This document shows, in pieces, positions 2,820 to 36,213 of a stretch of 42,591 nt of DNA. Position 1 is the first letter of the stretch, and each line of letters opens with the position of its first letter. Source of the stretch: a virus; IMG/VR virus record IMGVR_UViG_3300021197_000293, positions 1 to 42,591 of that record; one strand, given 5' to 3'. Position numbers and translations under genes: made by a program. The notes under the pieces were generated by a model that was not told the origin of the DNA, searched no databases, and was given only the letters and a program-made list of their open reading frames with translations.

Positions 2820-2848
2820 ACTATACGCCAAACTGACGAAGCCGTCAA
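2820..2848 (-). promoter_or_regulatory. Minus-strand promoter with palindromic operator
   Basis: TTGACG (2848-2843), 17-base spacer, TATAGT (2825-2820). The -35 is embedded in TGACG-GCTT-CGTCA, a perfect inverted repeat with a four-base centre (2834-2847). It drives the small gene at 2614-2787, the kinase and the genes down to the terminator at 1232. Confidence 0.8.
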
Positions 2849-2861
2849 CATAGAATAGTAA

Positions 2862-3041
2862 TTATTTTTTAGTTGTTGTTAAATGCCAGGCACCACAAAA
2901 GCGGCAAGCATACGGCCGGAGCTTTCGCCCCGACTTTCTGGCCTTGCCTAACTTTTTAGAAAAATGGCGCCGCTGGTTGGCTATATAGTTAGCATGGTCT
3001 ACCGCGTCGGCTTTAGTGGCGTACGGTATCTTCTGACACAT
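2862..3041 (-). CDS. Small basic zinc-finger protein (59 aa)
   Basis: The ATG at 3041 overlaps the TAA of the primase gene by one base (TAATG), so it is probably translated by reinitiation. The product is strongly basic (RRHFSKKLGKARKSGRKLR) and ends with YACRFCGAWHLTTTKK, a CxxC...H type metal-binding tail found in many short phage proteins. It may bind DNA or RNA; the role is unknown. Confidence 0.75.
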   Translation of the reverse strand: MCQKIPYATKADAVDHANYIANQRRHFSKKLGKARKSGRKLRPYACRFCGAWHLTTTKK

Positions 3042-5632
3042 TAAGTCACCTTAAACACTTCGGCCGCGTTACCAGTTGGTACCGTTTGCGCGCCCTGGGC
3101 TTCCTGGTAGATACGGGCCACTTCTGCAGGCGCCGTTATGTTAGCGTTAATATGGCCGTTACGTATGAATAAGCGCGATTTCTTACCGTCGTCCATAGGG
3201 ATAGGATTATTAACACGGCCGCCAGTTAACGCCGGGTGCCAGTCATAGCCGAGGGACTGCAGTAGTTCGCGTCGCTTGTTATGTGGAATTGAGCGGGTCG
3301 CGTGTATCGTTTGGAGTAACCTTTCGACCGCTACCGAAGATATCCAGCCGCCGGCAAAGCCTGGGCGTCCTTCCTCGACTGCTTCTAAAATTTCCTGTTC
3401 GATACCACCCATAGACGCGGTTAACGCTTCGCTGGTGCTGCTAGTTTCTGGTGCTCTATGGCAAGCGCCGGCCGGGTTAAGTTCGTCCGGTATTGCATAG
3501 TTAGCCAGGTAGTTGGCCACAATGGCGTAGCCGTCACCCTTAAGCCAGGTATATAGCTCCGGGAAATAGTTACCGTCCATACCGTCGCGGGCCAGGTCTG
3601 TATCTAACTGCTGGGCCGAATAGAATACGGCGAAGCGTCGGTCGTTACGTGTCTTACGGATAGCGTCCTTATGGTTACTATTTAGGATAAAATTAGCGTA
3701 ATTATCGCCCATTACTTGCGCCTGCTGCATTGCACGTTTAGCCAGGCGGTCGTTAGTAATCATAGGTTTTAATACTTCGATAATTTCCTTTTTATGGTCC
3801 GGGACGTAAACGTCTTCTACGCCGATAAATAATTTATTAAATAACCATTCGTTAAACTTCTCGGCTATCTCGTTCGACGGCGGTAAGTGCGTATAGCGCG
3901 AACCTATGGCAAAAGCCACGCAACGAGTAAACAGCGTTTTTCCGTTACCTTCTGCGCCCTGGATAAGTGGCGCCCATTGGAATTTAACGCCTTTATGCTG
4001 AATACAGGCCGCCATATACGCGAGTAATATTTCCTGGTCTCTCGGCTCCGGTAATATCTTAGCCAGGTGATTAAGGAACGGCGTAGCGTCGCCAGATAAG
4101 CGCGGGGTTTCTATCGGTAGGTATGCGTTAACTAAGACGACGCCGTCCTCCTTTAGTAGCGACCCTGGGGCCTCTAGTGGGCGGAATGCCATAGCCTCGG
4201 CTTTCGGGTAGCGTACGATTTGCGACTCGGTAAACGCCTCCCAGGCCTTACGGGTAACCTTATCGCCGCCGTCGTCTAACTGGAAGCTATAACCGCCGTA
4301 TGTGGCGTTAAACTGCTCCGACTTTAGTAGCGAACCGTTCGGCGTAAATACCCGGTGTAATTCCTGGATATAGACGCACCCCTTAAAATATTCGATTTGC
4401 TGATTAGCGCCTAAGTATTGGTACCCGGTTAATATCTCCGGTCCTTCTACCGTATTACCCAGGGGCGCGGCGGCTGTTTCGATTGGCGTAAGTACCTGGC
4501 GTAATTCTTCGACGCTACGGTCTTTATTATCTAGCCAAAATTTAGCCGTAGGGACCTTACAAAACATTTCGATAAGTTCGACTTCCCCCTGGCATTCCGC
4601 CAACTTAGTAGCGCGTACGTTAGTCGCGTAGTCTCGCTGGGGGTCGCTGGTGGCTCGTAGTCGAACGCCGCCGAATTCCTGGGCGATAGTGTCGTCGACT
4701 TCCTTAACGGAGTATACGACCTCCTGCAGTGACACGGCGCGGGTAATAGTACGGATAAGGTAGTCTTCTCGCTCCCACTTATCGCGGACCAGGCCGGAAC
4801 GTCTCATTAGGTTAAGCATTCGTTCGCAATTATTACCGGTCCAGAACGCTAAATGCTGGGCGAGTGCCGCGTCGGCGCTACTACCGTCGTATGTACGGTT
4901 ACCTTCTGGGTCTGGGTAGGCTTTAGCGAGGACGTCTTCGTCGCATTCCCATAGGTGGCGGAAAGTCGCCCGGTCACCAAAAACAGCACCCCCGCCGCCA
5001 GTCTTAAGCGCGCGGTCGATAAGTTCGTCGTCGTCTTCGGTACCGGTCCATTCTGCCGTAGGCTCGGTAGTCCAGTCCTGGTCCTTAGTCGCTGCCTTTG
5101 GCGGGAAATAGCTATTAATTAACCCTGGTAAGTGCTGCGAGTAGTCCAGCCCGGCGGTACCCTGGGCGTTAATACCGGTAAGCGCTACGAATCGGCCTTC
5201 GGTATAGAGTTCCAGGCCTAACGCTATGTTCTTACAGGAATGGTCCGGCGCTACGCCTTGCCCGAATATGTGGAGTCCTCGGCCAGACTGCGATACTTCT
5301 ACCGCGGCGCCAGGTAAGCGCGTCAGGATATCCATAGCAACGGGCGACCAGGTCGTATTATCCGCGTTTAAACACTTATCTAAATCCACAAAGAAGAACG
5401 GGTCGTTAGGCGTAAATACGAAGCCTACGCCGTAATTCTCGCCGTAAGCCTGGGCGGTAGATATCGCCGTCGTCGAGTCCATCCAGGCGCCCGGGTCGTG
5501 TGCGTCGGCTACTTTGGCGGTACGGTAATCTACGGGTAACTTAACTTGCTTACCTTCTCGTTCCGCTAACGTCCATAAAATAAACTGCTTGTACGCTGCT
5601 AGCGGCTGCAGCGCTTCCGGTAGGTTTTGCAT
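3041..5632 (-). CDS. Primase-polymerase / SF3 helicase fusion (replicative primase-helicase)
   Basis: 863 residues. The N-terminus is an archaeo-eukaryotic primase-type fold: VDLD at residues 82-85 gives the metal-binding acidic pair, and SQSGRGLHIFGQG near 114-126 is the sGxGxH motif. The middle has GAEGNGKT near residue 562 (Walker A) and a downstream FIGVEDVY acidic strand and sensor-like Asn (ILNSNHK), as in D5/DUF5906-type SF3 helicases. It should make primers and unwind DNA at the fork. The plan resembles phage NrS-1-type prim-pols. Start ATG at 5632 with AGGGG eight bases upstream. Confidence 0.88.
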   Translation of the reverse strand: MQNLPEALQPLAAYKQFILWTLAEREGKQVKLPVDYRTAKVADAHDPGAWMDSTTAISTAQAYGENYGVGFVFTPNDPFFFVDLDKCLNADNTTWSPVAMDILTRLPGAAVEVSQSGRGLHIFGQGVAPDHSCKNIALGLELYTEGRFVALTGINAQGTAGLDYSQHLPGLINSYFPPKAATKDQDWTTEPTAEWTGTEDDDELIDRALKTGGGGAVFGDRATFRHLWECDEDVLAKAYPDPEGNRTYDGSSADAALAQHLAFWTGNNCERMLNLMRRSGLVRDKWEREDYLIRTITRAVSLQEVVYSVKEVDDTIAQEFGGVRLRATSDPQRDYATNVRATKLAECQGEVELIEMFCKVPTAKFWLDNKDRSVEELRQVLTPIETAAAPLGNTVEGPEILTGYQYLGANQQIEYFKGCVYIQELHRVFTPNGSLLKSEQFNATYGGYSFQLDDGGDKVTRKAWEAFTESQIVRYPKAEAMAFRPLEAPGSLLKEDGVVLVNAYLPIETPRLSGDATPFLNHLAKILPEPRDQEILLAYMAACIQHKGVKFQWAPLIQGAEGNGKTLFTRCVAFAIGSRYTHLPPSNEIAEKFNEWLFNKLFIGVEDVYVPDHKKEIIEVLKPMITNDRLAKRAMQQAQVMGDNYANFILNSNHKDAIRKTRNDRRFAVFYSAQQLDTDLARDGMDGNYFPELYTWLKGDGYAIVANYLANYAIPDELNPAGACHRAPETSSTSEALTASMGGIEQEILEAVEEGRPGFAGGWISSVAVERLLQTIHATRSIPHNKRRELLQSLGYDWHPALTGGRVNNPIPMDDGKKSRLFIRNGHINANITAPAEVARIYQEAQGAQTVPTGNAAEVFKVT

Positions 5633-5641
5633 AGAACGCCC

Positions 5642-6148
5642 CTAAAAATTTGCTAATAGTGTAGCGGCTTCCGCTTTCAACTCGGCCGGCGCTTTCTTAG
5701 CGTGGTCGTCTCCATTTGCTAAACCCTGGGCGATAATTTCCGCGATACCTTGCTTAATAGCCCGGCGCATTACGGCCGTTTTAAGTTGGTTCATAGTACC
5801 GAAGTAACGAGTAACCAGGCCCATAGATACGCCGGCGGACTCCGCTATCTTATCGCGGGTAATTTTGTTATAGCCTGATACTTTAGCCATAGCTACCGCT
5901 ATGTTAAGGATATGGTCCTTACGTAATTCCGGGTTAGCGCGGGTTTTACTTACTGAGTGCGCTATCTCCTGGATATTTTCGAGTTTCAATTCCTCGACAA
6001 AGTCGGAGAAATTACAGCCCATAATATGCGGGAACGAACCGTCCGGAATGCCGGCACGTTCGCATAACTCGCGGCGGGAAAGGTTAATTAGGCCTTCGCC
6101 TCTAACCATACAGACCGCTACTTCTTTTACCTGTTCGCGTTGTTTCAT
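5642..6148 (-). CDS. Tandem TetR-type HTH DNA-binding protein
   Basis: 168 residues from the ATG at 6148 (AGGAA nine bases upstream). The in-frame start at 6298 would translate straight through the tRNA-like element, so I reject it. The protein has two similar halves: one with LSRRELCERAGIPDGSFPHI and a second with ITRDKIAESAGVSMGLVTRY. Both look like TetR N-terminal helix-turn-helix domains, and no ligand-binding domain follows. A single chain with two HTH units could bind an inverted repeat as a pseudo-dimer. Its own promoter (6309-6337) carries TGACG-N4-CGTCA, suggesting autoregulation; this is inference. Confidence 0.7.
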   Translation of the reverse strand: MKQREQVKEVAVCMVRGEGLINLSRRELCERAGIPDGSFPHIMGCNFSDFVEELKLENIQEIAHSVSKTRANPELRKDHILNIAVAMAKVSGYNKITRDKIAESAGVSMGLVTRYFGTMNQLKTAVMRRAIKQGIAEIIAQGLANGDDHAKKAPAELKAEAATLLANF

Positions 6149-6180
6149 TGCGTTAATTTCCTGTTTGTTTAATAGAGGGT

Positions 6181-6296
6181 GCGGCGCGCCTGGATTCGAA
6201 CCAGGAAGACAAAGGCGGCCATTTATTCCCGCCCTAACGCTTGCTAAGGTGTCAATCCCCTTAGTGTGTTTTGCCAAATTTTCACCTACGCGCCAC
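6181..6296 (-). tRNA. Atypical, long tRNA-like element
   Basis: The minus strand shows a 7-8 bp acceptor stem (GTGGCGCG with CGCGCCGC, one G-U), TA at positions 8-9, a Leu/Ser-type 3-bp D stem (GTG/CAC) whose loop has AA at 14-15, GG, and A21, and a perfect T arm, CCTGG-TTCGAAT-CCAGG. Between them, CTAAGG and CCTTAG form a stem with a nine-base loop GGATTGACA. Then comes an extra-long variable region with a 7-bp stem AGGGCGG/CCGCCTT. Total is about 116 nt, beyond a normal class II tRNA. The anticodon is unclear: UUG if centred, UGA or GAC if shifted. No CCA is encoded. The promoter at 6309-6337 would start transcription a few bases before it. Confidence 0.55.
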
Positions 6297-6308
6297 ATTT
6301 AGAAAATG

Positions 6309-6337
6309 ATACTAACCCGTAGTGACGTCGCCGTCAA
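6309..6337 (-). promoter_or_regulatory. Minus-strand promoter with palindromic operator before the tRNA-like element
   Basis: TTGACG (6337-6332), 17-base spacer, TAGTAT (6314-6309). The -35 lies in a perfect TGACG-GCGA-CGTCA inverted repeat (6323-6336). The expected start site is about 6302, just before the tRNA-like 5' end at 6296. It also overlaps the stop of the gene at 6312-6527. Confidence 0.78.
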
Positions 6338-6527
6338 TAGAGAATATAAAAGCGCTAAAGACGACCCGGTCTTCCCCAGGTCCGTAAATCGCCATTCGCT
6401 TAGAGCGTTTAACGTCCGGTTCGCCCATGGCTGCGACCACATCGTCGAGACTTTCGAAGCCCGCGTCGGTTGACGGCCCGGAGCATTGCTTCGTAGAGTT
6501 TTTAAAAGGTGTAGCGTAAATAGTCAT
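6312..6527 (-). CDS. Small protein (71 aa), unknown
   Basis: Starts two bases after the VRR-NUC gene's stop and ends inside the following promoter. The sequence has a helical middle (FESLDDVVAAMGEPD), a basic KRSKR patch and an IYGPGEDRVVFSAF strand-rich C-terminus. No family is recognised. Tight spacing with the nuclease gene supports a real, co-translated gene. Confidence 0.65.
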   Translation of the reverse strand: MTIYATPFKNSTKQCSGPSTDAGFESLDDVVAAMGEPDVKRSKRMAIYGPGEDRVVFSAFIFSIDGDVTTG

Positions 6528-6528
6528 A

Positions 6529-7008
6529 TTAGAGGGTTCCTACTGAGTTAGCGAAGGCCGCGTCGCCGCCCATGCTCGCTACAAGGTTTAAAAAATTAAG
6601 TTGTGCTTCTTCCCGTTTACTACCTGAGTATCCCCAGTTAGTGGCCTTAACTTCCCGGGCGATAAACTGCCCTATTACCTGGCCTACGTGGTTTTGCTGG
6701 ATAAGTAGCGGCCGTATCCCTATTAAATCGCTAGACTTTATAAGGTCATTCATTTGCTTAGAGTCATTAGCGAGCCCATAGCGAAGGAAACTACCGTCTT
6801 CGGTATACGTGCCGCCTACGTTATTCCGCCAAACTCTACAGCCCTTTTGTGTAGCTTCCAGGCGTATACGTGTCTGGATTGCGCCCTCCGACTCTGCAGC
6901 TAGCCCCGACGGCTGCGGGTCGGTATTAACGAGCCCGAATTCCCGGCGTAAGTCTTCTACCGCTTCGATAGGAATTCCCCATTTAATACCCCATTGCGTT
7001 AGATTCAT
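6529..7008 (-). CDS. VRR-NUC domain nuclease
   Basis: 159 residues. The VRR-NUC (PD-D/ExK superfamily) pattern is visible: SEGAIQTRIRLEA near residues 40-52, VWRNNVGG, SSDLIGI with Asp94, REVKATNW with Glu119 and Lys121 as the E-x-K pair, and QLNFL. Such phage nucleases are found with SF2 helicases, DUF2815 and DUF2800 proteins, and are thought to cut branched or replicating DNA. Its start overlaps the deaminase stop (ATGA). Confidence 0.85.
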   Translation of the reverse strand: MNLTQWGIKWGIPIEAVEDLRREFGLVNTDPQPSGLAAESEGAIQTRIRLEATQKGCRVWRNNVGGTYTEDGSFLRYGLANDSKQMNDLIKSSDLIGIRPLLIQQNHVGQVIGQFIAREVKATNWGYSGSKREEAQLNFLNLVASMGGDAAFANSVGTL

Positions 7009-7322
7009 TCTTCTATTACCTCAATTAATTTTACACCAGATAAACGCGCCGCCGACTTACAGGAATCGCAAGCGTAAGTATGACCGCGTAATAAAATAGT
7101 AGAGCCTTTGGCATTATCACCCGCCGCGTTAATAGCGTTAACTTCCGCATGGGCGCCTTGACCACATATGGATTTACAAAGGTGATACCCTTCTCCACTA
7201 GCATAACCAGCGGTATCCCTCGGGCATTCTTTTTGCGGAGTTTCGCAAGCGTTAGTACCTACAAATTCCCGACCGTTAAGAGCTATTAACGTCGCGGTAA
7301 CTATTTGTTTAGCGCAAGTCAT
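7005..7322 (-). CDS. dCMP/CMP deaminase-family protein
   Basis: 105 residues with the zinc-dependent deaminase motif: HAE at 58-60 and CDSC at 85-88 (usual PCxxC). Extra cysteines at 26, 33, 49 and 53 lie before the HAE, as in dCMP deaminases with a second zinc site. dCMP deaminase makes dUMP, the substrate of ThyX encoded at 17561-18274. It is shorter than T4 dCMP deaminase. It is coupled on both sides: ATGA overlap with the methyltransferase stop before it and the nuclease start after it. Confidence 0.8.
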   Translation of the reverse strand: MTCAKQIVTATLIALNGREFVGTNACETPQKECPRDTAGYASGEGYHLCKSICGQGAHAEVNAINAAGDNAKGSTILLRGHTYACDSCKSAARLSGVKLIEVIEE

Positions 7323-8626
7323 TTGTTTAATTCCTTAAGTATTCTTCCCCCTATAAATTTAATAACCGGTACCGCCTTAGAATTACCTATCGCTTTATAG
7401 CGGGGGCCGTCGGGGCAATCTTCCACCGATTTATTACGCCAGGGTATGCGCGTATGGTTATCCGGGAAACCTTGTAAGCGTTCGCATTCTACGGGGGTTA
7501 ATTTACGTACTTCGGGGAAAACTAAAGGTTTAGTGTCGTAATCCGCGCCCCCTGTACCGTATGAAGCGGTTAGACGCATGGTTACGGATTTTAAAGCCTG
7601 AGTACAAACAGCGTGTTTGTCGCCCGTAGTTAGGGTGGGGCAAGGGTCAATACCAGAGCCGACGCCGAACCCGTTACCGGAGCCTTTACCAGTTTTACCC
7701 GCGTGGCGAGTTGCTTTATCGTGTATTGGATATACTAGCGACTGCCCTTCGTCCAGGTCGGAGTTAACACCCTTATCCATGCGTCTAGTGAGAGTATTAG
7801 CTATTTCTTTAGGGTGTGTAGCGCCCAGGGTAAGCCCTGCGCCTCTTTGGCTAAATACTTCTTGATTACTAGCGCCTATACCCCCGGTATTAAAAGACTG
7901 GTTTAGGGTTGGGTGCGCGTTCGCTCTATTGTCCCAATGAGAGCCATTTTTAACGCTTCCGGTAATTTCTTCCCCCGCTTCTCGGCTCGGCGGAGTATCC
8001 CTTCGCAAGCCTTCGGACTCAAATAATACTTTTGAGGGGTCGAACCCTTTTCTAGCACTTGCGACAACAAACACACGTCGGCGGCGTTGGGCCACTCCGA
8101 AATATTGGGCGTCGAGGACCCGCCAAGCGATTGTTCTTTCGGGTCCAAACACAAGACCAGCGTTCGACCACCTAAGCCCTGTTGGTTTAAGTTCGCATTC
8201 TTCCCCGGCGAGGGCTCCGAGGAAACACCCGAAAGCGTTGTCTTTACTACTGAGGACCCCGGGGACGTTTTCCCAGACGGTAATACACTCGTTACCTTTT
8301 CGTTTTTTATCGATTTCATTAGCTAATTCCACAAATTTTAAAGTTAATTGTCCGCGCTCGTCCCCTAACCCTTTACGAAGACCCGCGACGCTAAACGCCT
8401 GGCATGGTGTCCCTCCGACTAAAATATCCGGCGCGTCAATTAGCCCCGTGGCTACTAAGTAAGGTAAGTTACACATATCCCCCAGGTTAGCGACGCCCGG
8501 CCAATGGTGCGCGAGGACTGCAGACGGGAACGCCTCAACCTCCGCAAACCAAGCGGCGCGCATACCTAAAGGCTCCCACGCTATAGAAGCGGATTCGATA
8601 CCGCTACAGATAGACCCGTATATCAT
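7319..8626 (-). CDS. DNA (cytosine-5) methyltransferase
   Basis: 435 residues. Motif I GSICSGIESAS at the N-terminus, motif IV GGTPCQAFS with catalytic Cys75, motif VI WENVPG, motif VIII AQRRRRVFVV and motif X YKAIGNSKAVPV are all present. A target-recognition region of about 170 residues (about 205-375) includes PTLTTGD. It transfers methyl from SAM to cytosine in DNA; the target cannot be read from sequence alone. No partner restriction enzyme is encoded nearby, so it is probably an orphan, protective or regulatory enzyme. It follows the promoter at 8663-8691. Confidence 0.93.
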   Translation of the reverse strand: MIYGSICSGIESASIAWEPLGMRAAWFAEVEAFPSAVLAHHWPGVANLGDMCNLPYLVATGLIDAPDILVGGTPCQAFSVAGLRKGLGDERGQLTLKFVELANEIDKKRKGNECITVWENVPGVLSSKDNAFGCFLGALAGEECELKPTGLRWSNAGLVFGPERTIAWRVLDAQYFGVAQRRRRVFVVASARKGFDPSKVLFESEGLRRDTPPSREAGEEITGSVKNGSHWDNRANAHPTLNQSFNTGGIGASNQEVFSQRGAGLTLGATHPKEIANTLTRRMDKGVNSDLDEGQSLVYPIHDKATRHAGKTGKGSGNGFGVGSGIDPCPTLTTGDKHAVCTQALKSVTMRLTASYGTGGADYDTKPLVFPEVRKLTPVECERLQGFPDNHTRIPWRNKSVEDCPDGPRYKAIGNSKAVPVIKFIGGRILKELNK

Positions 8627-8662
8627 TAAGTTAAACCCCTGTTAATTATAAATACCTAGCGG

Positions 8663-8691
8663 ATACTACGCTATAATGACGGCTTCGTCAA
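8663..8691 (-). promoter_or_regulatory. Minus-strand promoter with palindromic operator before the methyltransferase
   Basis: TTGACG (8691-8686), 17-base spacer, TAGTAT (8668-8663). The -35 is in a perfect TGACG-AAGC-CGTCA repeat (8677-8690). It lies over the last codons of the small gene at 8671-8838 and serves the methyltransferase, deaminase and nuclease genes. Confidence 0.78.
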
Positions 8692-8838
8692 TACTGGTTT
8701 ACGATACCTTATTTTTACGGTTTCTTTCGTCCCGTCGCTATAGTGGAGCGTCCATTTTTTGATACGAAACATACCGACGCTACCCGCCGCCGCGTAGTCT
8801 TCGAATTCTTCTTTTATACAGGTTCTAGCGTTAGCCAT
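8671..8838 (-). CDS. Small basic protein (55 aa), unknown
   Basis: Starts at the ATG at 8838 inside the end of the preceding gene (25-base overlap), with GAGGG seven bases upstream. The product begins MANARTCIKEEFEDYAAAG and continues with FRIKKWTLHYSDGTKE, a likely beta hairpin, then a basic end. No family is recognised. Its last codons double as the promoter and operator of the methyltransferase operon. Confidence 0.6.
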   Translation of the reverse strand: MANARTCIKEEFEDYAAAGSVGMFRIKKWTLHYSDGTKETVKIRYRKPVLTKPSL

Positions 8839-9056
8839 AATTCCCTCTCGACTGCTTTTAGTTGCTCCCGGGTTACGAAATACCCGGCCGATTCGGAAGG
8901 TATATTCGTCCAGAAGTTATCGCCAGAAGATACGAAAAATATATGTATATACTCAATTTTCGCACCTACGCCCCTGGCGGTCGTTAGTATCTGGACGACG
9001 ACTTTAATTTTAGAGCCGTCCGCCCGGTTAAATATTTTTTCAACTTCCGCCAGCAT
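8814..9056 (-). CDS. Small protein (80 aa), unknown
   Basis: The ATG at 9056 lies 17 bases inside the end of the helicase gene. The product has strand-rich stretches (KIKVVVQILTTA, KIEYIHIFFVSS) and a helical EQLKAVERELW near the C-terminus. I do not recognise it. Overlapping gene order suggests translational coupling with the helicase. Confidence 0.65.
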   Translation of the reverse strand: MLAEVEKIFNRADGSKIKVVVQILTTARGVGAKIEYIHIFFVSSGDNFWTNIPSESAGYFVTREQLKAVERELWLTLEPV

Positions 9057-10743: not shown

Positions 10744-10746
10744 TTA

Positions 10747-11046: not shown

Positions 11047-11070
11047 TTTTAAAACCTCGATTATTTGTTG

Positions 11071-11099
11071 TTGACGGGGAGAACATTACGCTATATTAT
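11071..11099 (+). promoter_or_regulatory. Plus-strand promoter of the replication operon
   Basis: TTGACG (11071-11076), 17-base spacer, TATTAT (11094-11099). It drives the plus-strand operon from 11135. Its TGACGG is mirrored by CCGTCA at 11105-11110, which belongs to the opposing promoter, so the two share one short divergent control region. Confidence 0.78.
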
Positions 11100-11111
11100 C
11101 CATACCGTCAA
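11083..11111 (-). promoter_or_regulatory. Minus-strand promoter of the helicase operon
   Basis: TTGACG (11111-11106), 17-base spacer, TAATGT (11088-11083). It overlaps the plus promoter at 11071-11099, so the two polymerases would compete for the site. It drives the genes from 11046 leftward. Confidence 0.65.
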
Positions 11112-12001: not shown

Positions 12002-12003
12002 TA

Positions 12004-13173
12004 ATGTCCCATTCCATTTTACCGCCGTCGTCGGCTGGTATTTGGGGTAAGCCGGACGGTTGTACGGGTTGGGTCTTAATGGCCCAAACTTACCCGGAGA
12101 CCGAAGAATCCGTCGAAGCCCGCGAAGGTACCGCGTCGCACGAAATAGGCGCCGAGATTATTACGGACGCCCAGACTAATACCCGCCAGCGCCATACGGC
12201 TAAGGATTGGGTCGGGATTACCGCTTCTAACGGGGTGCTTCTTACCGAAGAAATGTTCGACGCTGCCAAAATGTACGCCGACGACGTTATTAGTGTAATG
12301 CGTAGTACGGGCGTATTCGGTGGCCCTAATATCCGTATCGAACAGCGCGTCGAGATTCCCAGGGTACACGAAATTAACTGGGGTACGCCGGACTGCTCTA
12401 TCTATCATAAAGCTAAAAATACGCTATACCTTTGGGACTATAAGTTCGGTTTCGAGGTTGTAGAAGCGTTCGAAAATTGGCAAGCGATAGACTACGTAGC
12501 CGGCTTACTGGACGAACTCGAAATTAACGGCCACGTAGACCAATTTACTAGGGTCGTTATCCGTATCGCCCAGCCGCGAGCGTTTCACCGCGACGGACCT
12601 ATCCGCGAATGGGTTGTCCTGGCGAGTGAACTACGCGCCCATATCAATATTTTACACGGTAACGCACATAAGGCCCTAGGCCCTAACGCCGAGTTTAATA
12701 CCGGTAGCCACTGTAAGCACTGCCCGGGGCGCCATGCTTGCCCGGCGGCACTTAAAGCCGGTACCGGGCTATACGAAGTCGCTACTAAACCCGTACCCGT
12801 GGAATTATCAGCGGAAGCCCTGGGCGTTCAATTAGCGATAGTTAAGCGAGCCCGTAAACAGTTGGAATACTTAGAGTCCGGATTCGAAGAACAGGCGAAA
12901 GGCCTAATACGTTCCGGCTCCCTGGTATCTGGCTGGGCTACCGAAGAAGGCTTCGGCCGTGAAACCTGGGGTAAACCCATAGAAGAAGTTATCGCCCTGG
13001 GGGATATGCTTAACTTCGAACTTAGAAAACCCGTCGACGCCATTACGCCAAACCAAGCTAGAAAATTAGGTATTGACGACGCCGTCATTACGGCATATAG
13101 TACAACTCCTCGAACCGGTATTAAAATAGTCCCGGATAATGGTAACAAAGCTAAACAGGTATTTAAAAAATGA
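12004..13173 (+). CDS. DUF2800 PD-(D/E)xK nuclease (Cas4/RecB-like)
   Basis: 389 residues. It begins with ILPPSSAGIW, then EGTASHEIGAE near 37-47, a PDCSIYH strand, LWDYKFG near 140-147 (the D-x-K of the nuclease core) and HCKHCPGRHACP near 234-245, a Cys cluster like the Fe-S site of Cas4-type nucleases. The family sits beside DUF2815 and PolA genes in many phages and probably resects DNA ends for recombination. The start follows a GGGGGTG ribosome site; its end holds the promoter for the next gene. Confidence 0.85.
   Translation: MSHSILPPSSAGIWGKPDGCTGWVLMAQTYPETEESVEAREGTASHEIGAEIITDAQTNTRQRHTAKDWVGITASNGVLLTEEMFDAAKMYADDVISVMRSTGVFGGPNIRIEQRVEIPRVHEINWGTPDCSIYHKAKNTLYLWDYKFGFEVVEAFENWQAIDYVAGLLDELEINGHVDQFTRVVIRIAQPRAFHRDGPIREWVVLASELRAHINILHGNAHKALGPNAEFNTGSHCKHCPGRHACPAALKAGTGLYEVATKPVPVELSAEALGVQLAIVKRARKQLEYLESGFEEQAKGLIRSGSLVSGWATEEGFGRETWGKPIEEVIALGDMLNFELRKPVDAITPNQARKLGIDDAVITAYSTTPRTGIKIVPDNGNKAKQVFKK
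13073..13101 (+). promoter_or_regulatory. Internal plus-strand promoter with palindromic operator before the SSB gene
   Basis: TTGACG (13073-13078), 17-base spacer, TATAGT (13096-13101). The -35 is in a perfect TGACG-ACGC-CGTCA repeat (13074-13087), all within the coding end of the DUF2800 gene. It would give the SSB-like gene extra, separately controlled expression. Confidence 0.75.
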
Positions 13174-14129
13174 GCAATCAAAATTTAACGCAAATCTTAA
13201 CCCCGGTCGGTCGTCTAGTACAAGGTGACTGTTTCGAACCTCAAACTACAGACGCGGAAGGTAAACCGCTTCTAATTAAAAATGGCCCGAACGCCGGCCA
13301 GCCTCGCGTAGAGTATTTTATGGCTATCGCGGTACCAAAAACCGACGCCGGATATAACGAAGTATGGGCGGCCATCCATGGCGTAGCCCGCGCGGCCTTC
13401 CCGTCGCTGTTCGACGCTTCGGGTAACTGTATTAACCCTAAGTTCGCTTTTAAGGTAACGGACGGCGATAGCCAGGTCCCGAACACTAAAGGTACGAAAC
13501 CTTGCGACCGTGAAGGCTTCCCGGGTAACTGGATTATGAACTTTAGCGGCGGCTTCGCTCCTAAGTGCTATACGGCCGGCGGTGCGGAACTTATTACAGA
13601 CCCTAATATGCTTAAGCGTGGTTACTTTATCCGTATTTACGGTAGCGTTAAGGGTAACGGTTCAATGCAGCAACCAGGTATTTTCCTTAATCATTCTATG
13701 GTTGAACTGGTAGGCTATGGCGAAGAAATACATAGCGGCCCAGACGGCGCCGGCGTATTCGGTGGCGCTCCTGCTGCTAATTTACCAGCGGGCGCAAGTG
13801 CTACGCCTTTGGCTAGTTCGGCTCCTATCGCCCAGGCTGCCCCGGCTCCTGCAGCGGCACCAATGCCGGGCGCGGCGGCTGCTCCTGCCCCTATGGCTGC
13901 GCCAGCGGCGGCCCCTGCTCCGAGTAACGTACAACCAGCGCCAGACTTCCTTAACGGCCCGGGCGCGGCGGCTCCTGCTCCGGCCCCTGCTGCAGCACCA
14001 GCACCGGCGGCCGCTCCTGCGCCAGTAGAAGTTAAATACCTGGACGCTAACGGTACCGCATTTACCGAAGCGCAACTCCTGGCCGCTGGATATCAGCCAG
14101 CACAAATCCAGGCACTAGCGCGCGCTTAA
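13170..14129 (+). CDS. DUF2815 single-stranded-DNA-binding protein
   Basis: 319 residues. The N-terminal 190 residues fit the DUF2815 OB-fold family of phage SSBs (NLTQILTPVGRLVQGDCFEP start, YFMAIAVPK, GNWIMNFSGGFAPKC, YFIRIYGSVKGNG). A long Ala/Pro/Met linker (about 200-285) precedes a short C-terminal tail. It should coat ssDNA during replication and recruit partners. The ATG overlaps the nuclease TGA (ATGA), and the gene has its own promoter inside the nuclease gene. A terminator follows at 14149. Confidence 0.85.
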   Translation: MSNQNLTQILTPVGRLVQGDCFEPQTTDAEGKPLLIKNGPNAGQPRVEYFMAIAVPKTDAGYNEVWAAIHGVARAAFPSLFDASGNCINPKFAFKVTDGDSQVPNTKGTKPCDREGFPGNWIMNFSGGFAPKCYTAGGAELITDPNMLKRGYFIRIYGSVKGNGSMQQPGIFLNHSMVELVGYGEEIHSGPDGAGVFGGAPAANLPAGASATPLASSAPIAQAAPAPAAAPMPGAAAAPAPMAAPAAAPAPSNVQPAPDFLNGPGAAAPAPAPAAAPAPAAAPAPVEVKYLDANGTAFTEAQLLAAGYQPAQIQALARA

Positions 14130-29341: not shown

Positions 29342-29343
29342 GA

Positions 29344-29580: not shown

Positions 29581-29966
29581 TCACAAATTTTAACGTCTGT
29601 ACCTACTAAACCAGCAAATACGCTTTGATGTACTTTACACATATCGGCCATTACCGCGTATGTTTTCGCTACATCATGGTTTTTCTTTTTACTGTCCATA
29701 GCCATTAAGGAAGCACCGGTCCGCTCATGGAATACGATGGTTTCTTTATGCTTTGAACGTCCGTTAAACGGGGTATATTCAGCTTCGCCATTCTCATTAA
29801 TGACAAGGTGACCGCGCTCAATGGCTCGAATGATTCGGCTTTTCTGTTTATTGAATGCCGTTAAGTCTTCCGCATCCATTTGAGACGTATCGAGGTCGAG
29901 GTCCATTTCCTCGACGAATCGTTCGAATTCTTGTTCGGCTACTTCTTTCGCTACTTTATCGTTCAT
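29553..29966 (-). CDS. Tail assembly chaperone (Mu gp41-like)
   Basis: 137 residues, acidic and helical (EQEFERFVEEMDLDLDTSQ), then ERGHLVINENGEAEYTPF and helices. The place between tube and tape measure and the shape fit the Mu gp41/lambda gpG class, which binds the tape measure protein before tube assembly. Its stop is bypassed by a -1 shift in some products. Confidence 0.78.
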   Translation of the reverse strand: MNDKVAKEVAEQEFERFVEEMDLDLDTSQMDAEDLTAFNKQKSRIIRAIERGHLVINENGEAEYTPFNGRSKHKETIVFHERTGASLMAMDSKKKNHDVAKTYAVMADMCKVHQSVFAGLVGTDVKICEALFALLMD

Positions 29967-30063
29967 AATATTGCCCTATTTTAAAAAGTGGTGCCACGCC
30001 CCAGGCTTTCGCACCAGGTAAAGGGTAGGGCTCCCGCGCAGCATTTCAGCCCTATTTTAACCC
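29967..30063. other. Structured leader between tube and chaperone genes
   Basis: 97 non-coding bases. On the minus strand, GGTGC and GCACC can pair around a 16-base loop and are followed by ACTTTTT, a possible weak terminator. GGGCT and AGCCC also pair. TTAAAATAGGGC occurs twice, once after the tube stop and once overlapping the chaperone ribosome site. It probably lowers chaperone expression relative to tube. Confidence 0.45.
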
Positions 30064-30447
30064 TTACTGTTTAGTAAGAATACCCGGTCCCATTAGAGAT
30101 ACGGCCGCGGTAGCATTCTGGCTACTGGCTTGCGTCTCTCCGACAATCTGCGCCGTACCTTGGTAAGTATTACCAGAAGCGTACGAGATAGCCACAGGGA
30201 AGAAGTCGTTACGGTTTGAAAGTTCTTGTAGGAACTCGTGGTCTCCGCGGTCGTCGTCGACCTCAACCGTCAAACCATCGATAGATAGTGGTACGCGAGT
30301 CTTGATAAGACGCGCAGTACCGTTACCGTTCGCTTGGACTTCGTTTTCGAATCCGCCTAACTTTCGTTGGGCTTCTGCGTCGGCCGCTACTGCGAAGTTG
30401 CGACCGTCTAAAGTAATGCTTTCAATGCTTCCGCCTACGGCTGCCAT
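30064..30447 (-). CDS. Tail tube protein (Mu gpM-like)
   Basis: 127 residues with GSIESITLDGRNFAVAADAE and RLIKTRVPLSIDGLTVEVDD, the plan of the Phage_tail_tube family of Mu-like phages. It polymerises into the inner tube. It follows the sheath gene directly. Confidence 0.85.
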   Translation of the reverse strand: MAAVGGSIESITLDGRNFAVAADAEAQRKLGGFENEVQANGNGTARLIKTRVPLSIDGLTVEVDDDRGDHEFLQELSNRNDFFPVAISYASGNTYQGTAQIVGETQASSQNATAAVSLMGPGILTKQ

Positions 30448-30465
30448 TGTCCTATCTCCTTAACT

Positions 30466-31974
30466 TTATGCTACGACCGAAGCCGTACCAAAGAAAAACC
30501 CGAAATTCAAATCTACGGAAATTATATTCGTATTTCCGCTTAGTTGAACAGTTGTAGAAACGTCCAGACGTTTAGGGTTCTGGTCGTTAATTTCCGCCAG
30601 GGTATTAGCCTTCGCGGTTTCTGGGTCGCTGATAATGGCGTTAAGGCCTAAGCTATCCAGCATAGAAGCGACGGCGGCTACTGCTGCCTTCGGTTTCTTA
30701 GCCGAACGGTTAACCGTTGGCTGGTCGTCTGGAATCAATGGCGCGCCGTCCCATTCTGGGGTAGCGAAAATTAAATCCAGGTTAAAAATAATGTTTTGTA
30801 GTTTAACAATATCTACTACATAACGATACGCCGGGATAGGGTCACCCGTTGGGTGGTAGAAAGTCACTACGTCGGATACGTTAACTACGCCGTCTTTTAC
30901 TTCGACGGACGAACTACCTTTCTTAATAGCGCTATCGCGGTCCGTGTAGGTCCACTGTTCGCCGTCCGTACCTGGCGTTAAGCCTGTAGCGTCCTGGCTA
31001 CCGTAATCCTGCGGCGGGTTGTTGTTCGCCACCTTAGCAATACGGGCTAGCTGTCTAGCGGCCACAATAAACGGTAAATCGTTAGAGCCTGGGGCTACTA
31101 ACTGGCCGTTCGTACGGTCCGTTTTACGGGCGTCCGATACTGCAGTCGCGGCGGTAACCGTGGTTTCGGTATTACCGGTTAAAACTACTAGCGGTTTACG
31201 AACTAACGCACCCCAGCGGCCTTCGCCGAAAGTAGAATATTTATCCAGCGTCGCGGTATCTGCTACGTCCATGCAGTTAAGGACCATAGTTTCCCATACG
31301 TTACCCACTTGGTTAAGCGCGTCGTCTACGTCTGGGTTTACCAGGCCGCCTACTGGCTGAGTAATAGCAAAAGATACGCCGGCGGTAGTTGGGCCTACGA
31401 TTTCGATAACGATGTCGTTAGCACTGGTACCCGCCCATTTTGAAGCGATACCCACTTCCGTAGAAGTTCCCGGGGTGGCGTCCGTAGCGATAACCGGCAT
31501 TTCTAAAGTAGCGTTAATCGCTGCAGTAGCCGCCGTAATAATATCCGCCACACTGTCGCCCACACTGATAACGAACTGTTCCGAGTCGATGTTATTAACG
31601 CGAACCCGGTACGCTGCTGCTTCTGTAGCTGCTCCGCTCGGGGTGATATCCCCGGCCGACGCTACGCCGCTGCCGTCGTCTTCTAATGGGTAGACAGTAA
31701 CCGGGATAGTCCCGACGCCGTCACCGTTAACCGGTAAAAGCTGTAATACTGCTAAATGGATAGGGGACCCGAAACCGTAAAGCGTCGCCGCTTCCGTCGC
31801 GCTAGTTACCTGGCGTTTCGTGGTGTCATAGGTTGAGGCGCTAGAGCCCTGGCCGACAACGGCTAGGCGTTGGGGTAAAAATAAAATACCACCGCCGCGT
31901 AGGTCCTTAAAAATTGTTTTTATGCCGACTACTCGCGCCACTGCGGAAGCGTCGACCGCGCTTGATATTGCCAT
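30466..31974 (-). CDS. Contractile tail sheath protein (Mu gpL-like)
   Basis: 502 residues, with VDASAVARVVGIKTIFKDLR near the start, GGILFLPQRLAVVGQG, a variable middle domain and a C-terminal RYVVDIVKLQNIIFNLDLIF with LSGNTNIISVDLNFGFFFG at the end, as in FluMu-type sheaths. It shows that the virion is a myovirus. Confidence 0.92.
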   Translation of the reverse strand: MAISSAVDASAVARVVGIKTIFKDLRGGGILFLPQRLAVVGQGSSASTYDTTKRQVTSATEAATLYGFGSPIHLAVLQLLPVNGDGVGTIPVTVYPLEDDGSGVASAGDITPSGAATEAAAYRVRVNNIDSEQFVISVGDSVADIITAATAAINATLEMPVIATDATPGTSTEVGIASKWAGTSANDIVIEIVGPTTAGVSFAITQPVGGLVNPDVDDALNQVGNVWETMVLNCMDVADTATLDKYSTFGEGRWGALVRKPLVVLTGNTETTVTAATAVSDARKTDRTNGQLVAPGSNDLPFIVAARQLARIAKVANNNPPQDYGSQDATGLTPGTDGEQWTYTDRDSAIKKGSSSVEVKDGVVNVSDVVTFYHPTGDPIPAYRYVVDIVKLQNIIFNLDLIFATPEWDGAPLIPDDQPTVNRSAKKPKAAVAAVASMLDSLGLNAIISDPETAKANTLAEINDQNPKRLDVSTTVQLSGNTNIISVDLNFGFFFGTASVVA

Positions 31975-31988
31975 GGGTATATCTCCTC

Positions 31989-32663
31989 TTATGGCGCTGT
32001 ATAATCGTAATCAGCTTCGAGGACGATTTCGCCGTCTTCTGCTCTAATCACGTCTACCGATAAAAGTTCTAGCGTTTCGGCTTCCACCTGGGGCGAGAAC
32101 TCGTTAAATACTACACGAAGGGCTAATCTAGCGCCTACTATTTGTTGCATCTGGCGGCCGTCTAATTGCGGCTGGAAAACTGTAATAGACTGTGGCCAGC
32201 GTTGCCATACTAGGCCCTGCAGACCTAAATACGTGTATTCTGCAGCCATTAAGATATTACGTATTAATCGTAACGCCTTCTGGACTTCGAACGAGGCTTC
32301 TTTATCCCCGGGAATATGCCCGGTACCGCCGTCGTCTTTACTAAGGCCGTAGCCGTAGCAATCAATATTATAAACAGTTTCGGACGCTTGGCGTTCCGAT
32401 ATATTACTTTTACCTGGTGCGAAGTTAGAATTATCGTACCAAATATTTACGATAGGGCTTCGGTCTGTCTGCTCGTTAAGTAGCTGTTCCCAGGGGTTCG
32501 ACCGTTCCGTAAAAATTCTTAATTTCCAGTCGTCCGGATTCGGCTTTCCTGCCGTGGTAGCTAATGCTATCTGGCTGGCTACTTCCGTCGTTAGTATCGC
32601 GGCTATCTGGTCGCGGATAACTTCGAAATTATCTTGTTTATCTATTAACGTGGAAATAGTCAT
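31989..32663 (-). CDS. Tail terminator / completion protein (putative)
   Basis: 224 residues. IDKQDNFEVIRDQIAAILTT start, INVWYDN-like strand (VNIWYDNSNFA), then a domain with YNIDCYGYG and GARLALRVVFNEFSP. This fits the Gp37/lambda gpU-type terminators that cap the tube. The call rests on order, between FII-like and sheath. Confidence 0.65.
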   Translation of the reverse strand: MTISTLIDKQDNFEVIRDQIAAILTTEVASQIALATTAGKPNPDDWKLRIFTERSNPWEQLLNEQTDRSPIVNIWYDNSNFAPGKSNISERQASETVYNIDCYGYGLSKDDGGTGHIPGDKEASFEVQKALRLIRNILMAAEYTYLGLQGLVWQRWPQSITVFQPQLDGRQMQQIVGARLALRVVFNEFSPQVEAETLELLSVDVIRAEDGEIVLEADYDYTAP

Positions 32664-33043
32664 TATTCGTATAATTCCAGTAATAAAGTAACTAGGCCGA
32701 GCGCTCTATCTGGGTTAGATTGCGCTACTTTAAACTTAAAGGCGTTACCGTTAATATCGTTAAATTCTATAATCCAGGGCTTAATACCAGCGTCGGCAAT
32801 TCCCCGGGGCAGGGTTAGCCCTGCGGCTAAGATAGAAGATATACGTAGCGCTACGGACGCTAAACGGCCGCTTACGGCTTGCCCGGTGTCTGGGTCGATA
32901 ATCTGCGCGATATCGTCCGAGAAACCCGTAAGAGGTCGAACGGCCCCCGAAGGGTCCGTTACAGTAATCGGCCAACCGAAACCCGTAGCCTCATCTTCTA
33001 AGATAAGGCCGAGGTCGGATTCTGCTAGCTGGCGAATACTCAT
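32663..33043 (-). CDS. Head-tail connector, FII-like (putative)
   Basis: 126 residues; helical start, PITVTDPSGAVRPLTGFSDD and KFKVAQSNPDRALGLVTL. Length and order fit a lambda gpFII-type stopper that joins head to tail. Its TAATG junction with the next gene suggests coupling. Confidence 0.6.
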   Translation of the reverse strand: MSIRQLAESDLGLILEDEATGFGWPITVTDPSGAVRPLTGFSDDIAQIIDPDTGQAVSGRLASVALRISSILAAGLTLPRGIADAGIKPWIIEFNDINGNAFKFKVAQSNPDRALGLVTLLLELYE

Positions 33044-33046
33044 TTA

Positions 33047-33424
33047 CTAAGCCTTGCCTACGTGGCCGGACTTAACGAAAGCGTCTAACGCTTCCTTACC
33101 GCCTGCCAGGTCGTCGGCTTTGATTTCGTCGCCGTCTGCCAATAGTCCGCGCTTACTGGTTAAGCACTTACCCGGCATTACGAAAAAAGGCGGTTTTTCG
33201 CTAGGCTCGGCTTTCGCTTCGTCCGCTTTTTCCTTAGCTTCTGCGGCGGCTTTCGCTGCAGCGCCCGGCGTAAGGTCTTTGTCCGCTTCTTTCTTTTCGG
33301 CTTTTAGCTCGCTAAGAATATTAGCCAGTTCACCGTTATTTTTACCTTCGGTTTCTGGGGCGTCTTTTTCAAGCTCCGCCGAGATATCAGCGATAGCTTT
33401 AACTAAATCTTTATTACTTGGCAT
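33047..33424 (-). CDS. FI/FluMu-type head protein (putative)
   Basis: 125 residues: Lys/Glu/Ala-rich coiled-coil N-terminus (about 15-85) and a compact C-terminus FFVMPGKCLTSKRGLLADGD that resembles Mu/FluMu N-terminal-type small domains. Its place fits lambda gpFI, a packaging aid. Weakly defined. Confidence 0.55.
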   Translation of the reverse strand: MPSNKDLVKAIADISAELEKDAPETEGKNNGELANILSELKAEKKEADKDLTPGAAAKAAAEAKEKADEAKAEPSEKPPFFVMPGKCLTSKRGLLADGDEIKADDLAGGKEALDAFVKSGHVGKA

Positions 33425-33445
33425 GATGTTAGCCTCTAATAATTA

Positions 33446-33469
33446 AGCGCCCAGGTATTCCCGGGCGCT
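33446..33469 (-). terminator. Hairpin after the major capsid gene
   Basis: AGCGCCC and GGGCGCT pair with a ten-base loop. The downstream minus-strand sequence is AT-rich but lacks a long T run, so it may be a partial terminator or an mRNA-stabilising hairpin that raises capsid mRNA. Confidence 0.55.
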
Positions 33470-33479
33470 AAGGTTAAAA

Positions 33480-34577
33480 TTAAAGCTGAGTATCTAAACA
33501 GCCGAACGTATCGATAGCCGTAGGAATCATTAGCGGTCTAGCGCCGACGCCTCCGAATAACTGCTCGCCGTCATTAGATAGCCATGCGTTCGTAAACAAG
33601 TCCATACCGCCGGCTGCATTACTAACGCGACCTGGTAGCTCTGGTAGCAAGCCTGTAGCTTGTCCGCCGACTAACGCGCCGATATTAGGGATAGCGCCGA
33701 ATGTGGCGTCCATGCGACCAGAAGAAGCACGTACGACAATCTTACCAGGGTCTAGGAACTGGGTTTTAACGCCGCTTTGTGGGTCTTTATAGCGACCGCC
33801 ATAAGTCCACACGTCATAGCGATAATTGCCGATTTCTACAATACCTCGGAAGGTTCCGCCGTTACCGCGCATATCCATAGGCGAAATAGTGCCTAGGTCG
33901 ATACGTCGGATATCAAAGCGTTTTTGTATTTCGTCGTCGCTAATAAAGTTTTCGAAAGCGTCGATACCCATAAGTAGTTGGTCTGGGTCCGCTAGGCCGT
34001 CGTTACGTACAACTTCCGCCAGGGCGTTAATATCCGCGACTTTCTGCAAGCCTGTAGCAGTAGCCCAGGAAGTGCCGGCCGTTGGGAAATGCGTAGCTTT
34101 CGGCTTGTAATCAAGCGTATACAGCGCGTTACCGTTGCTATCCGTAAGCGTAACCGTACCGGTTTGTAAAACTTGCGACGCTTGTACTTCGATAGCGCGG
34201 CGGATTTTACGTTCGATTTTAGTCATACCGTTAAACATACGTAGAATAATGTTCGCTCTAAAGTCCGGAGACTGGAACGGGTCTTGTCCTGGCATACGTT
34301 TAATAAGGTCGAACGAATTAATAGGTAGTGCTTCCTTATGGATAGGAGGCTTAAAACCTTTATTCGTATACAGGTCTTCGGAGTTCATACGGTAGCCCGT
34401 ACTTAGGTCCTGGATAACGATAGAGATATCTTCGTCGCTACGTACGATATCGATTTCCACTTCTTCCGAAGTATGGAAGTTTTCCGGCGGGCTTTGGAAT
34501 AATCCCGAAAGGAATAACGTAGGCTGCGCCATTTGCATGTATGCCTTAAGCATACGTTTAGTAGTTGAACCGCTCAT
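33480..34577 (-). CDS. Major capsid protein (lambda gpE-like)
   Basis: 365 residues. MLKAYMQMAQPTLFLSGLFQ start, SEEVEIDIVRSDEDISIVI, NSFDLIKRMPGQDPF and the C-terminal half with FDIRRIDLGTISPMDMRGNG fit the lambda gpE family with the HK97 fold. It forms the shell; the decoration protein gene lies directly upstream. Its codon use suggests high expression. Confidence 0.93.
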   Translation of the reverse strand: MSGSTTKRMLKAYMQMAQPTLFLSGLFQSPPENFHTSEEVEIDIVRSDEDISIVIQDLSTGYRMNSEDLYTNKGFKPPIHKEALPINSFDLIKRMPGQDPFQSPDFRANIILRMFNGMTKIERKIRRAIEVQASQVLQTGTVTLTDSNGNALYTLDYKPKATHFPTAGTSWATATGLQKVADINALAEVVRNDGLADPDQLLMGIDAFENFISDDEIQKRFDIRRIDLGTISPMDMRGNGGTFRGIVEIGNYRYDVWTYGGRYKDPQSGVKTQFLDPGKIVVRASSGRMDATFGAIPNIGALVGGQATGLLPELPGRVSNAAGGMDLFTNAWLSNDGEQLFGGVGARPLMIPTAIDTFGCLDTQL

Positions 34578-34588
34578 GCTATGCGCTC

Positions 34589-34990
34589 CTATTGGTTATC
34601 AAGAATGTTTAATTCTTGAACGTCGATTGATACGAGGGAGTAGTCGCGCAATTGGTCAAGGACCGCCGCGTCTACGTTGCTACCGTCGCCGTCGGCGTCG
34701 ATAATTAAGCGTTCGGCACGAACTGAGCCCGAAACCATATCGCGGATACTTTCGTCGCCAGCGCCAGCCGCTTCTACGTCGTAAGTTAGGACCGCTTTAG
34801 GGATTCCGTTTTCGTTAGTTACGCCGCCTTTAACAAAAGGGACCAACTTAAGCGAAACTGAATCGCGCGCCAGGATAGTACCTTCGACAACTGTAGCCGC
34901 ACCCGCAAAGGTAAGGAGGTCGTCGCGGAACTCGCCGTCTTTAAGGATTACGCTACCTAAATCCACATTAGTAACTGTCAAATTAGCCAT
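34589..34990 (-). CDS. Head decoration protein (lambda gpD-like)
   Basis: 133 residues; VVEGTILARDSVSLKLVPF and KAVLTYDVEAAGAGDESIRD are the gpD-type beta core. It binds the three-fold sites of the expanded shell and stabilises it. Confidence 0.88.
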   Translation of the reverse strand: MANLTVTNVDLGSVILKDGEFRDDLLTFAGAATVVEGTILARDSVSLKLVPFVKGGVTNENGIPKAVLTYDVEAAGAGDESIRDMVSGSVRAERLIIDADGDGSNVDAAVLDQLRDYSLVSIDVQELNILDNQ

Positions 34991-34996
34991 GGTAGC

Positions 34997-35341
34997 TTAC
35001 TCCCCTAAACCGAGTTTAGCTTCGATAAGGCTAGCAACGTCGCCGCCTTGGTCTCCGCTATCGTCTTGTGCGTTGGCGTTGTCGCCGGCGTTAGCGCCCG
35101 CGTCGTCGTCCTGGCGGCTGGCTACATCACTGCGGTTCATTCCTGCAGTCATATACGTAGCTTGTAAAGTAGCCGTCATTTCTGAGCCTTCTTTAATTGC
35201 CGACGCTGCCGTCTTCATATCGCCCGAACTTTCGCCCATCATTAAATGAGCCGTTACGCGGTCGCGTTCTTGTGTAGTACCCTGTTGCACCGCCGCCGCG
35301 AAAGTTTCGGGGTGCTGGGCCTGTAGTTGTTTAAGGTCCAT
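34997..35341 (-). CDS. Internal scaffold (Nu3-like), in-frame within the protease gene
   Basis: An in-frame ATG at codon 274 of the protease gene (35341) has GGAGG eight bases upstream. It would yield a separate 114-residue, acidic, helical protein (MDLKQLQAQHPETFAAAVQQ start), as lambda Nu3 does from within gene C. It should scaffold the procapsid and be removed by the protease. Confidence 0.75.
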   Translation of the reverse strand: MDLKQLQAQHPETFAAAVQQGTTQERDRVTAHLMMGESSGDMKTAASAIKEGSEMTATLQATYMTAGMNRSDVASRQDDDAGANAGDNANAQDDSGDQGGDVASLIEAKLGLGE

Positions 35342-36160
35342 GTTATTGGCCTCCGGTTGGTTCCCGCTGTTGGCGGTGGTTGTTTTGGTACTCTTAACTG
35401 CTTTAAGCGACGGGGCCGCTACCGCGTCAATCATACCGCGCTTTAATGCTTCGTTCGCTAGGACTGTAGAGCCCTGGCCGAAGTCGGCGTTAACTTTATC
35501 GACCGAGGTATTACGACCGTCGGCGATTGCATCGACAAAAATTTCGTGCATTGCGTCGAGTTCTTCCCGGACCATAGCCTTACCTTCTTCGGTGGTTACG
35601 TCTGGGCGCTTCTTCGGCGCTTCTGTACTGGTAATACTAATTTCGTTTTCGTCTACCATAAAGGTAGCTACGACGCCTACGCTTCCGATTCGCGCGGCGA
35701 TATTGGACGCGACTACTTCGTCCGCCTGGCTGGCAATGGCAAAAGCCGCCGAGGCGCCGACGTTAGAAATAACCGCTTTAGTAGGTTTTTTAGCGGCTTG
35801 AATAGCTGCCAAAGTATCGAACAGGCCGTCGAAATGGCCGCCCGGGCTATCGATAGCCAGGGTAATATCGCTAACCGCGTCGTCTTGCTCCGCTGCAGCG
35901 ATAGCCGAAATAATTTCGGGGTAAGTGGTGTTTCCGCCACCGAATAACATAGCTAAAAAGCTGGGCGCTTTAGTAATAACGCCTTTAACGGAAATTTCCG
36001 CACTACTACCAGCAACGGTTAATAGTCTGTTATCGTTTGCGGAGACGTCGCCATTACCGAAACGCGCTTCGAATTGCGCTTGTTGTTCTGCCGAAGGCGT
36101 AAAGCCGGCTTTCTGGGCCTGCTGTATTGCTTGGCGGACACTAGCTTCTAGTAGCCACAT
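34997..36160 (-). CDS. Prohead protease-scaffold fusion (S49 / lambda gpC-like)
   Basis: 387 residues. The SppA-type core has SVKGVI, DSPGGHFDG at 104-112 and NVGASAAFAIAS with the likely nucleophile Ser137, then ARIGSVGVVATF. The last 114 residues form the scaffold, also made alone from an internal start. It matures the prohead. AGGAG lies about ten bases before the ATG at 36160; the promoter at 36185-36213 is directly upstream. Confidence 0.92.
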   Translation of the reverse strand: MWLLEASVRQAIQQAQKAGFTPSAEQQAQFEARFGNGDVSANDNRLLTVAGSSAEISVKGVITKAPSFLAMLFGGGNTTYPEIISAIAAAEQDDAVSDITLAIDSPGGHFDGLFDTLAAIQAAKKPTKAVISNVGASAAFAIASQADEVVASNIAARIGSVGVVATFMVDENEISITSTEAPKKRPDVTTEEGKAMVREELDAMHEIFVDAIADGRNTSVDKVNADFGQGSTVLANEALKRGMIDAVAAPSLKAVKSTKTTTANSGNQPEANNMDLKQLQAQHPETFAAAVQQGTTQERDRVTAHLMMGESSGDMKTAASAIKEGSEMTATLQATYMTAGMNRSDVASRQDDDAGANAGDNANAQDDSGDQGGDVASLIEAKLGLGE

Positions 36161-36184
36161 AAATAAAATTCTCCTGTTATACGC

Positions 36185-36213
36185 ATATTAACCCGTATTG
36201 CCGGCTTCGTCAA
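36185..36213 (-). promoter_or_regulatory. Minus-strand promoter for protease and capsid genes
   Basis: TTGACG (36213-36208), 17-base spacer, TAATAT (36190-36185). The -35 sits in TGACG-AAGC-CGGCA (36199-36212), the operator repeat with one mismatch. It starts expression of protease, scaffold, decoration and capsid genes. Confidence 0.75.

Follow-up and report, generated by a model that had tools for sequence, protein, structure and literature searches.

A palindrome embedded in the -35 region of phage promoters as the putative operator of a phage-encoded TetR_N-type repressor

Repressor-operator control is well known both for phages and for TetR proteins. Cro of phage lambda, a small autoregulated helix-turn-helix (HTH) protein, blocks early promoters during lytic growth, and the immunity repressor of mycobacteriophages such as L5 and BPs uses stoperators, which are asymmetric sites located within transcription units. 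The timing of gene expression is poorly known for most lytic phages that use the host polymerase. Here we describe a family of predicted promoters in a viral contig of 42.6 kb (IMG/VR record IMGVR_UViG_3300021197_000293, positions 1-42,591, hereafter the window), in which the -35 hexamer lies inside the inverted repeat TGACG-N4-CGTCA. We consider it likely, at a probability of roughly 0.7, that this palindrome serves as operator for an autoregulated TetR_N-type repressor which the phage itself encodes and which would exclude RNA polymerase from early and replication promoters. No account of this operator family or its regulon turned up in the open-access papers searched, a set that leaves out most subscription journals; likewise, we found no report there of an operator or regulon for the TetR regulator of the type encoded by Klebsiella phage JD001.

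The candidate regulator is a protein of 168 residues encoded at 5642-6148 on the minus strand (the open reading frame reads to 6298, and homology begins at the ATG at 6148). It carries a C-terminal TetR_N HTH (Pfam PF00440, 3.2e-8, above the family cut-off) and a more degenerate N-terminal HTH, and its AlphaFold2 model has a mean pLDDT of 87.5. The family profile matched TetR proteins in the PDB (best 3.5e-12), with RutR among the many TetR matches, and the closest solved folds were LuxR, HapR and SmcR, although these matches were weak (best E 9e-3). Full-length TetR members of ~200 residues possess a C-terminal ligand-binding and dimerization domain, whereas the phage protein has short helices alone after its HTH; we therefore refer to it as TetR_N-type rather than as a full-length TetR. 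Its homolog in the Jedunavirus JD001, whose genome bears the same motif, is a 92-residue protein annotated as 'TetR family transcriptional regulator'. The JD001 protein consists of one HTH unit and the window-type protein of two in tandem, and this covalent pair could matter for binding. PemR, a phage regulator described in the literature, was set aside since nothing in that literature ties it to the TetR_N-type family.

As in TetR, QacR and RutR, a TetR_N HTH is found together with a palindromic site over a promoter and a putatively autoregulated gene. The RutR consensus, TTGACCANNTGGTCAA, has the same TTGAC-N6-GTCAA frame; the outer half-sites of the phage dyad agree with it, but the inner bases (G-N4-C) differ. 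The phage system departs from these three regulators in that the protein has no ligand-binding domain and that several operators are spread across one viral genome. RutR itself represses the gene that encodes it and binds a palindrome of ~16 bp (PMC10891134). With respect to the hallmarks of a TetR-family operator, a conserved dyad and its association with the gene were observed, and binding by a dimer is predicted. The candidate regulator resembles Cro in being a small phage HTH protein that would be autoregulated and would block early promoters; its own promoter lies under its own operator-like dyad in the window and in the motif-bearing relatives compared, except Acinetobacter phage LAPP1. 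It differs from Cro in its TetR_N fold, in the use of single dyads at dispersed promoters instead of clustered operators, and in that no lysogeny module was seen. Many dispersed repressor sites per genome also recall the stoperators, but the sites described here are symmetric and fixed on the -35.

We measured the abundance of the motif against shuffled sequence. The exact repeat occurs 4 times in the window, and 6 matches were found at up to one mismatch compared to 0.90 expected (0 of 100 shuffles reached 6). The pattern TTGACG-16..18-TANNNT matched 8 times versus 1.08 expected, while the strict pattern TTGACG-N4-CGTCA-N8-TANNNT matched 4 times compared to none in 200 dinucleotide shuffles. 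A T precedes the arm in all 4 exact repeats, and TANNNT follows at exactly 17 nt. The same spacing was preserved in genomes picked without regard to the motif (the window, Shewanella phage SppYZU01, Acinetobacter phage Scuro, JD001, Escherichia phage ZCEC13, LAPP1 and the DNA-polymerase relatives L006-L045): in 53 of their 74 distinct palindromes a T preceded the arm and TANNNT followed after exactly 17 nt, other spacings scored 0-12, and several of the remaining palindromes had an 18-nt spacer or an almost correct -10. This does not match the refuting case named in the first-pass annotation, a motif equally common inside genes without a -10. In the position profile, where the outer arm bases are fixed by the search itself, the center was free and a weak T-A was apparent at positions 17-18. 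The innermost arm bases were paired in 56 of 69 distinct sites, a count that includes Scuro sites of shared ancestry and was matched in 1 of 2000 shuffles. Scrambling the distal arm reduced the number of IMG/VR matches to 23, compared to at least 120 for the true promoter pattern. Shuffles and conservation together rule out a chance origin, and the freely varying N4 centers rule out one copied block, as the first-pass annotation of this DNA had held in stating that the arms are what is conserved.

That annotation had also proposed a phage-wide promoter family and a scan of relatives for the repeat, which recovered orthologous sites in SppYZU01 and in IMG/VR relatives and, with the shuffles, bears the proposal out. 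The window is collinear with SppYZU01 (KY622015; 75-77% identity in aligned parts), in which the small-gene operon and the single-stranded DNA (ssDNA) annealing gene each have an orthologous upstream site, as do the protease gene (two arm mismatches) and the TetR-like gene (one mismatch). In JD001, ZCEC13 and LAPP1, which have a handful of detectable proteins in common with the window, no 5+5 inverted repeat was more over-represented than TGACG-N4-CGTCA, which has 10-11 copies in each, and phages PEAT2 and MEW1 were equally rich in it. The hosts of phages that use the motif include Klebsiella, Escherichia, Acinetobacter, Shewanella and Pectobacterium, a spread which argues that the regulator is a phage factor. 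Both arms were altered in Scuro, where 5 of 5 copies read TGACA-N4-TGTCA; since the arms changed as a pair, symmetry itself is conserved. Pseudomonas phage MR14 likewise has TGACA-type variants, one of them directly 5' of its TetR-like gene. Where the first-pass annotation had suggested a protein covering the arms, a dimeric one is the natural reading, and the product of the TetR-type HTH gene behind one site is the obvious candidate. A de novo palindrome search of the motif-negative relatives AeroV_348, PD0307, 1.009.O, VP16T and SFCi1 yielded nothing convincing. The motif-free relatives L170-L172 possess a TTGACG-17 promoter 5' of the TetR-like gene that has no palindrome.

The most widely kept site is that of the annealing gene, which was present in the window, SppYZU01, Scuro, G072, G030, G066, G033, JD001 and LAPP1. 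It lies inside the exonuclease frame in the window and just 3' of that frame in JD001, so coding constraint does not explain its conservation. A site 5' of the TetR-like gene was found in the window, SppYZU01, Scuro, G072, G030, G066 and G033 and, with one mismatch, in JD001, PEAT2 and MEW1; the LAPP1 counterpart (28515) is listed against primase instead. Further sites in JD001 precede small genes of unknown function among the structural genes.

Linkage of the motif to the TetR-like gene was apparent from several comparisons. Among the longer IMG/VR records fetched by the promoter pattern alone, 41 of 50 carry a TetR-like homolog, whereas none of the 23 records fetched by the scrambled-arm control do so (Fisher p 5e-12). 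The gene stands right behind a site in many genomes, and only eight of the window's proteins were detected in JD001 and LAPP1, its product being the sole regulator among these. Moreover, within the motif-independent set, position 3 of the recognition helix was Gly in 15 of 15 motif-bearing genomes and was not Gly in 33 of 38 motif-free genomes, so that none of the 33 non-Gly genomes bears the motif. Taken together, these findings demonstrate that the dyad is tied to promoters, is kept as a dyad and is linked to the TetR-like gene.

Several observations weigh against assigning the dyad to this protein. The control records were shorter on average than the motif-fetched ones. The annealing-protein family was found in 43 of the same 50 motif records, as often as the TetR-like gene, so presence or absence marks a gene module and not a regulator by itself; we consequently rejected it as sole proof. 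Phylogeny weakens the glycine test, a tree-aware version of which retained two supported independent pairs and none to the contrary, which is too few, and Ala, Ser and Pro also occur at helix position 3 among loci fetched by the motif. Finally, no TetR-like homolog was detected in fragments G070 and G071, which bear many sites. It is accordingly conceivable, albeit unlikely, that the dyad is recognized by a host regulator or by some other phage protein, with the TetR-like gene a mere fellow traveler in the replication module, as the equal frequency of the annealing family would allow. However, no further regulator is common to the window and JD001, the site is found in phages of several bacterial families, and the recognition helix tracks the motif.

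With the TetR_N-type protein as the reader of the dyad, we infer its binding, repression and timing as follows. A dimer would cover TGACG-N4-CGTCA, a stretch of sigma70-type promoters that takes in the -35 hexamer and the part of the spacer next to it, and, once bound, would exclude host RNA polymerase. It would thereby repress its own promoter together with those of the ssDNA-annealing gene, the methyltransferase operon and the small-gene/kinase operon. In a virulent phage, the course would be Cro-like: the promoters would fire at once with host polymerase, the repressor would build up, and early and replication transcription would then be throttled. The capsid-protease promoter, whose operator is half broken, would be less repressed. 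We regard it as probable that the repressor throttles the phages' replication genes during infection.

Placement of the operator on the -35 implies a blocking geometry, and hence repression; a further point against our reading is that the choice of repression over activation was judged from operator position alone. LuxR/HapR-type TetR proteins can activate, and the closest (weakly matched) folds include DNA-bound LuxR in activation as well as repression complexes. The TetR-like protein might thus bind these sites as an activator or dual regulator, aiding polymerase where the -35 is imperfect (TTGACG) or setting apart a temporal class. This we consider improbable, since a dimer bound at a fixed register on the -35 should clash with sigma, and since the promoters are already close to consensus in their hexamers and 17-nt spacer.

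Still less probable is an immunity function, in which the protein would silence a lysogen as CI or the mycobacteriophage stoperator repressors do, even though several dispersed operators under a single repressor resemble stoperator systems. The window genes searched and the annotations of SppYZU01 and JD001 revealed no integrase or lysogeny gene, and a search of bacterial genome contigs confirmed no close relative of the protein. Jedunavirus phages are classed as virulent (PMC10003202), which makes a Cro-like role likelier than lysogenic immunity. Equally hard to credit is that no regulator is involved and that the dyad either arises incidentally from sigma70 promoter sequence or serves DNA modification: the -35 half is constrained regardless and the phage encodes a cytosine methyltransferase, but the distal CGTCA is conserved without being a promoter element, as scrambling it made evident, and both arms co-change in Scuro.

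The repressor circuit gives a bare 'TetR' annotation a testable form, since candidate regulator, operator and regulon can be read from sequence across many phages from several hosts, Klebsiella phages of a virulent genus among them, and the family allows operators to be compared with recognition helices. We suggest, tentatively and with less than even confidence, that several virulent phage genera of distant hosts share a simple conserved timing circuit for their early and replication programme, made up of a ligand-free, TetR_N-only autorepressor, a -35-embedded operator and a grading of operator quality (perfect at replication genes, broken at capsid genes and often at the repressor's own promoter).

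The five repeat-bearing promoters listed by the first-pass annotation had the coordinates, strands and N4 centers given there. That at 2820-2848 (minus strand; TTGACGGCTTCGTCA-TATAGT, 17-nt spacer, exact arms at 2834-2847) lies upstream of the small-gene/kinase operon (2614-2787 onward), which includes a deoxynucleoside monophosphate kinase (1822-2433, minus; phrog_139, 1.5e-47), and has orthologs in SppYZU01 (at 42000) and G072. The putative autoregulation site at 6309-6337 (minus; exact arms at 6323-6336) precedes the TetR-like gene and overlaps the end of an open reading frame at 6312-6527. Exact arms were also present at 8677-8690 within the promoter at 8663-8691 (minus), before an operon containing a C5-cytosine methyltransferase (7319-8626, minus; phrog_116, 8e-85); no ortholog of this site was seen in SppYZU01 or G072. 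The promoter at 13073-13101 (plus; exact arms at 13074-13087) sits within the exonuclease gene (12004-13173), at its 3' end, and precedes a Gp2.5-like ssDNA-binding/annealing protein (13170-14129, plus; phrog_7011, 8e-91).

The fifth promoter, at 36185-36213 (minus; arms at 36199-36212), has a single wrong base, in the distal arm (CGGCA), and lies directly 5' of the head-maturation protease (34997-36160, minus; phrog_53, 1.3e-60), upstream of the decoration and capsid genes. This distal arm was damaged in every case, reading CGGCA in the window and G072 and GGGCA in SppYZU01 (two mismatches), and no such site was seen in G030 and G066 (both read to base 40000) or in G033 (a 35.6-kb fragment), which are more distant relatives. 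The proposal that DNA metabolism and head assembly share one switch thus stood in part: the TetR-like, annealing and small-gene targets are conserved and the methyltransferase target is present in the window, but the case for control of head assembly by the dyad is weaker. The same CGTCA to CGGCA change recurs before the TetR-like gene in SppYZU01 (38002), G066 (8558) and G033 (6683; L254), possibly as deliberate weakening.

Two overlapping divergent TTGACG-17-TA predicted promoters (11071-11099, plus, and 11083-11111, minus) occupy the gap between the helicase-side and exonuclease-side operons. As first described, they have the hexamers and the 17-nt spacer alone in common with the family, neither -35 being overlain by a dyad, whereas the corresponding gap in Scuro does hold a dyad promoter (26265, plus). 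Each -35 of this pair lies within the start region of the other, so that two polymerases could not sit together. The eighth TTGACG match (6470, plus), with an 18-nt spacer and antisense within the open reading frame at 6312-6527, is probably due to chance, and a one-mismatch repeat at 3523-3536, inside the primase gene and without a promoter, was set aside.

Between the promoter at 6309 and the TetR-like start, the stretch 6173-6302 (minus), which contains ~119 nt extra relative to G072, folds like a tRNA into a cloverleaf that has a long variable arm and a GGTTCGAATCC T-arm; ARAGORN and Rfam found no tRNA in it, and its fold z was only -1.5. The last 120 bases of the contig (42472-42591) repeat 41022-41141 exactly with no extension, and this repeat is probably an artefact of assembly at the end of the contig.

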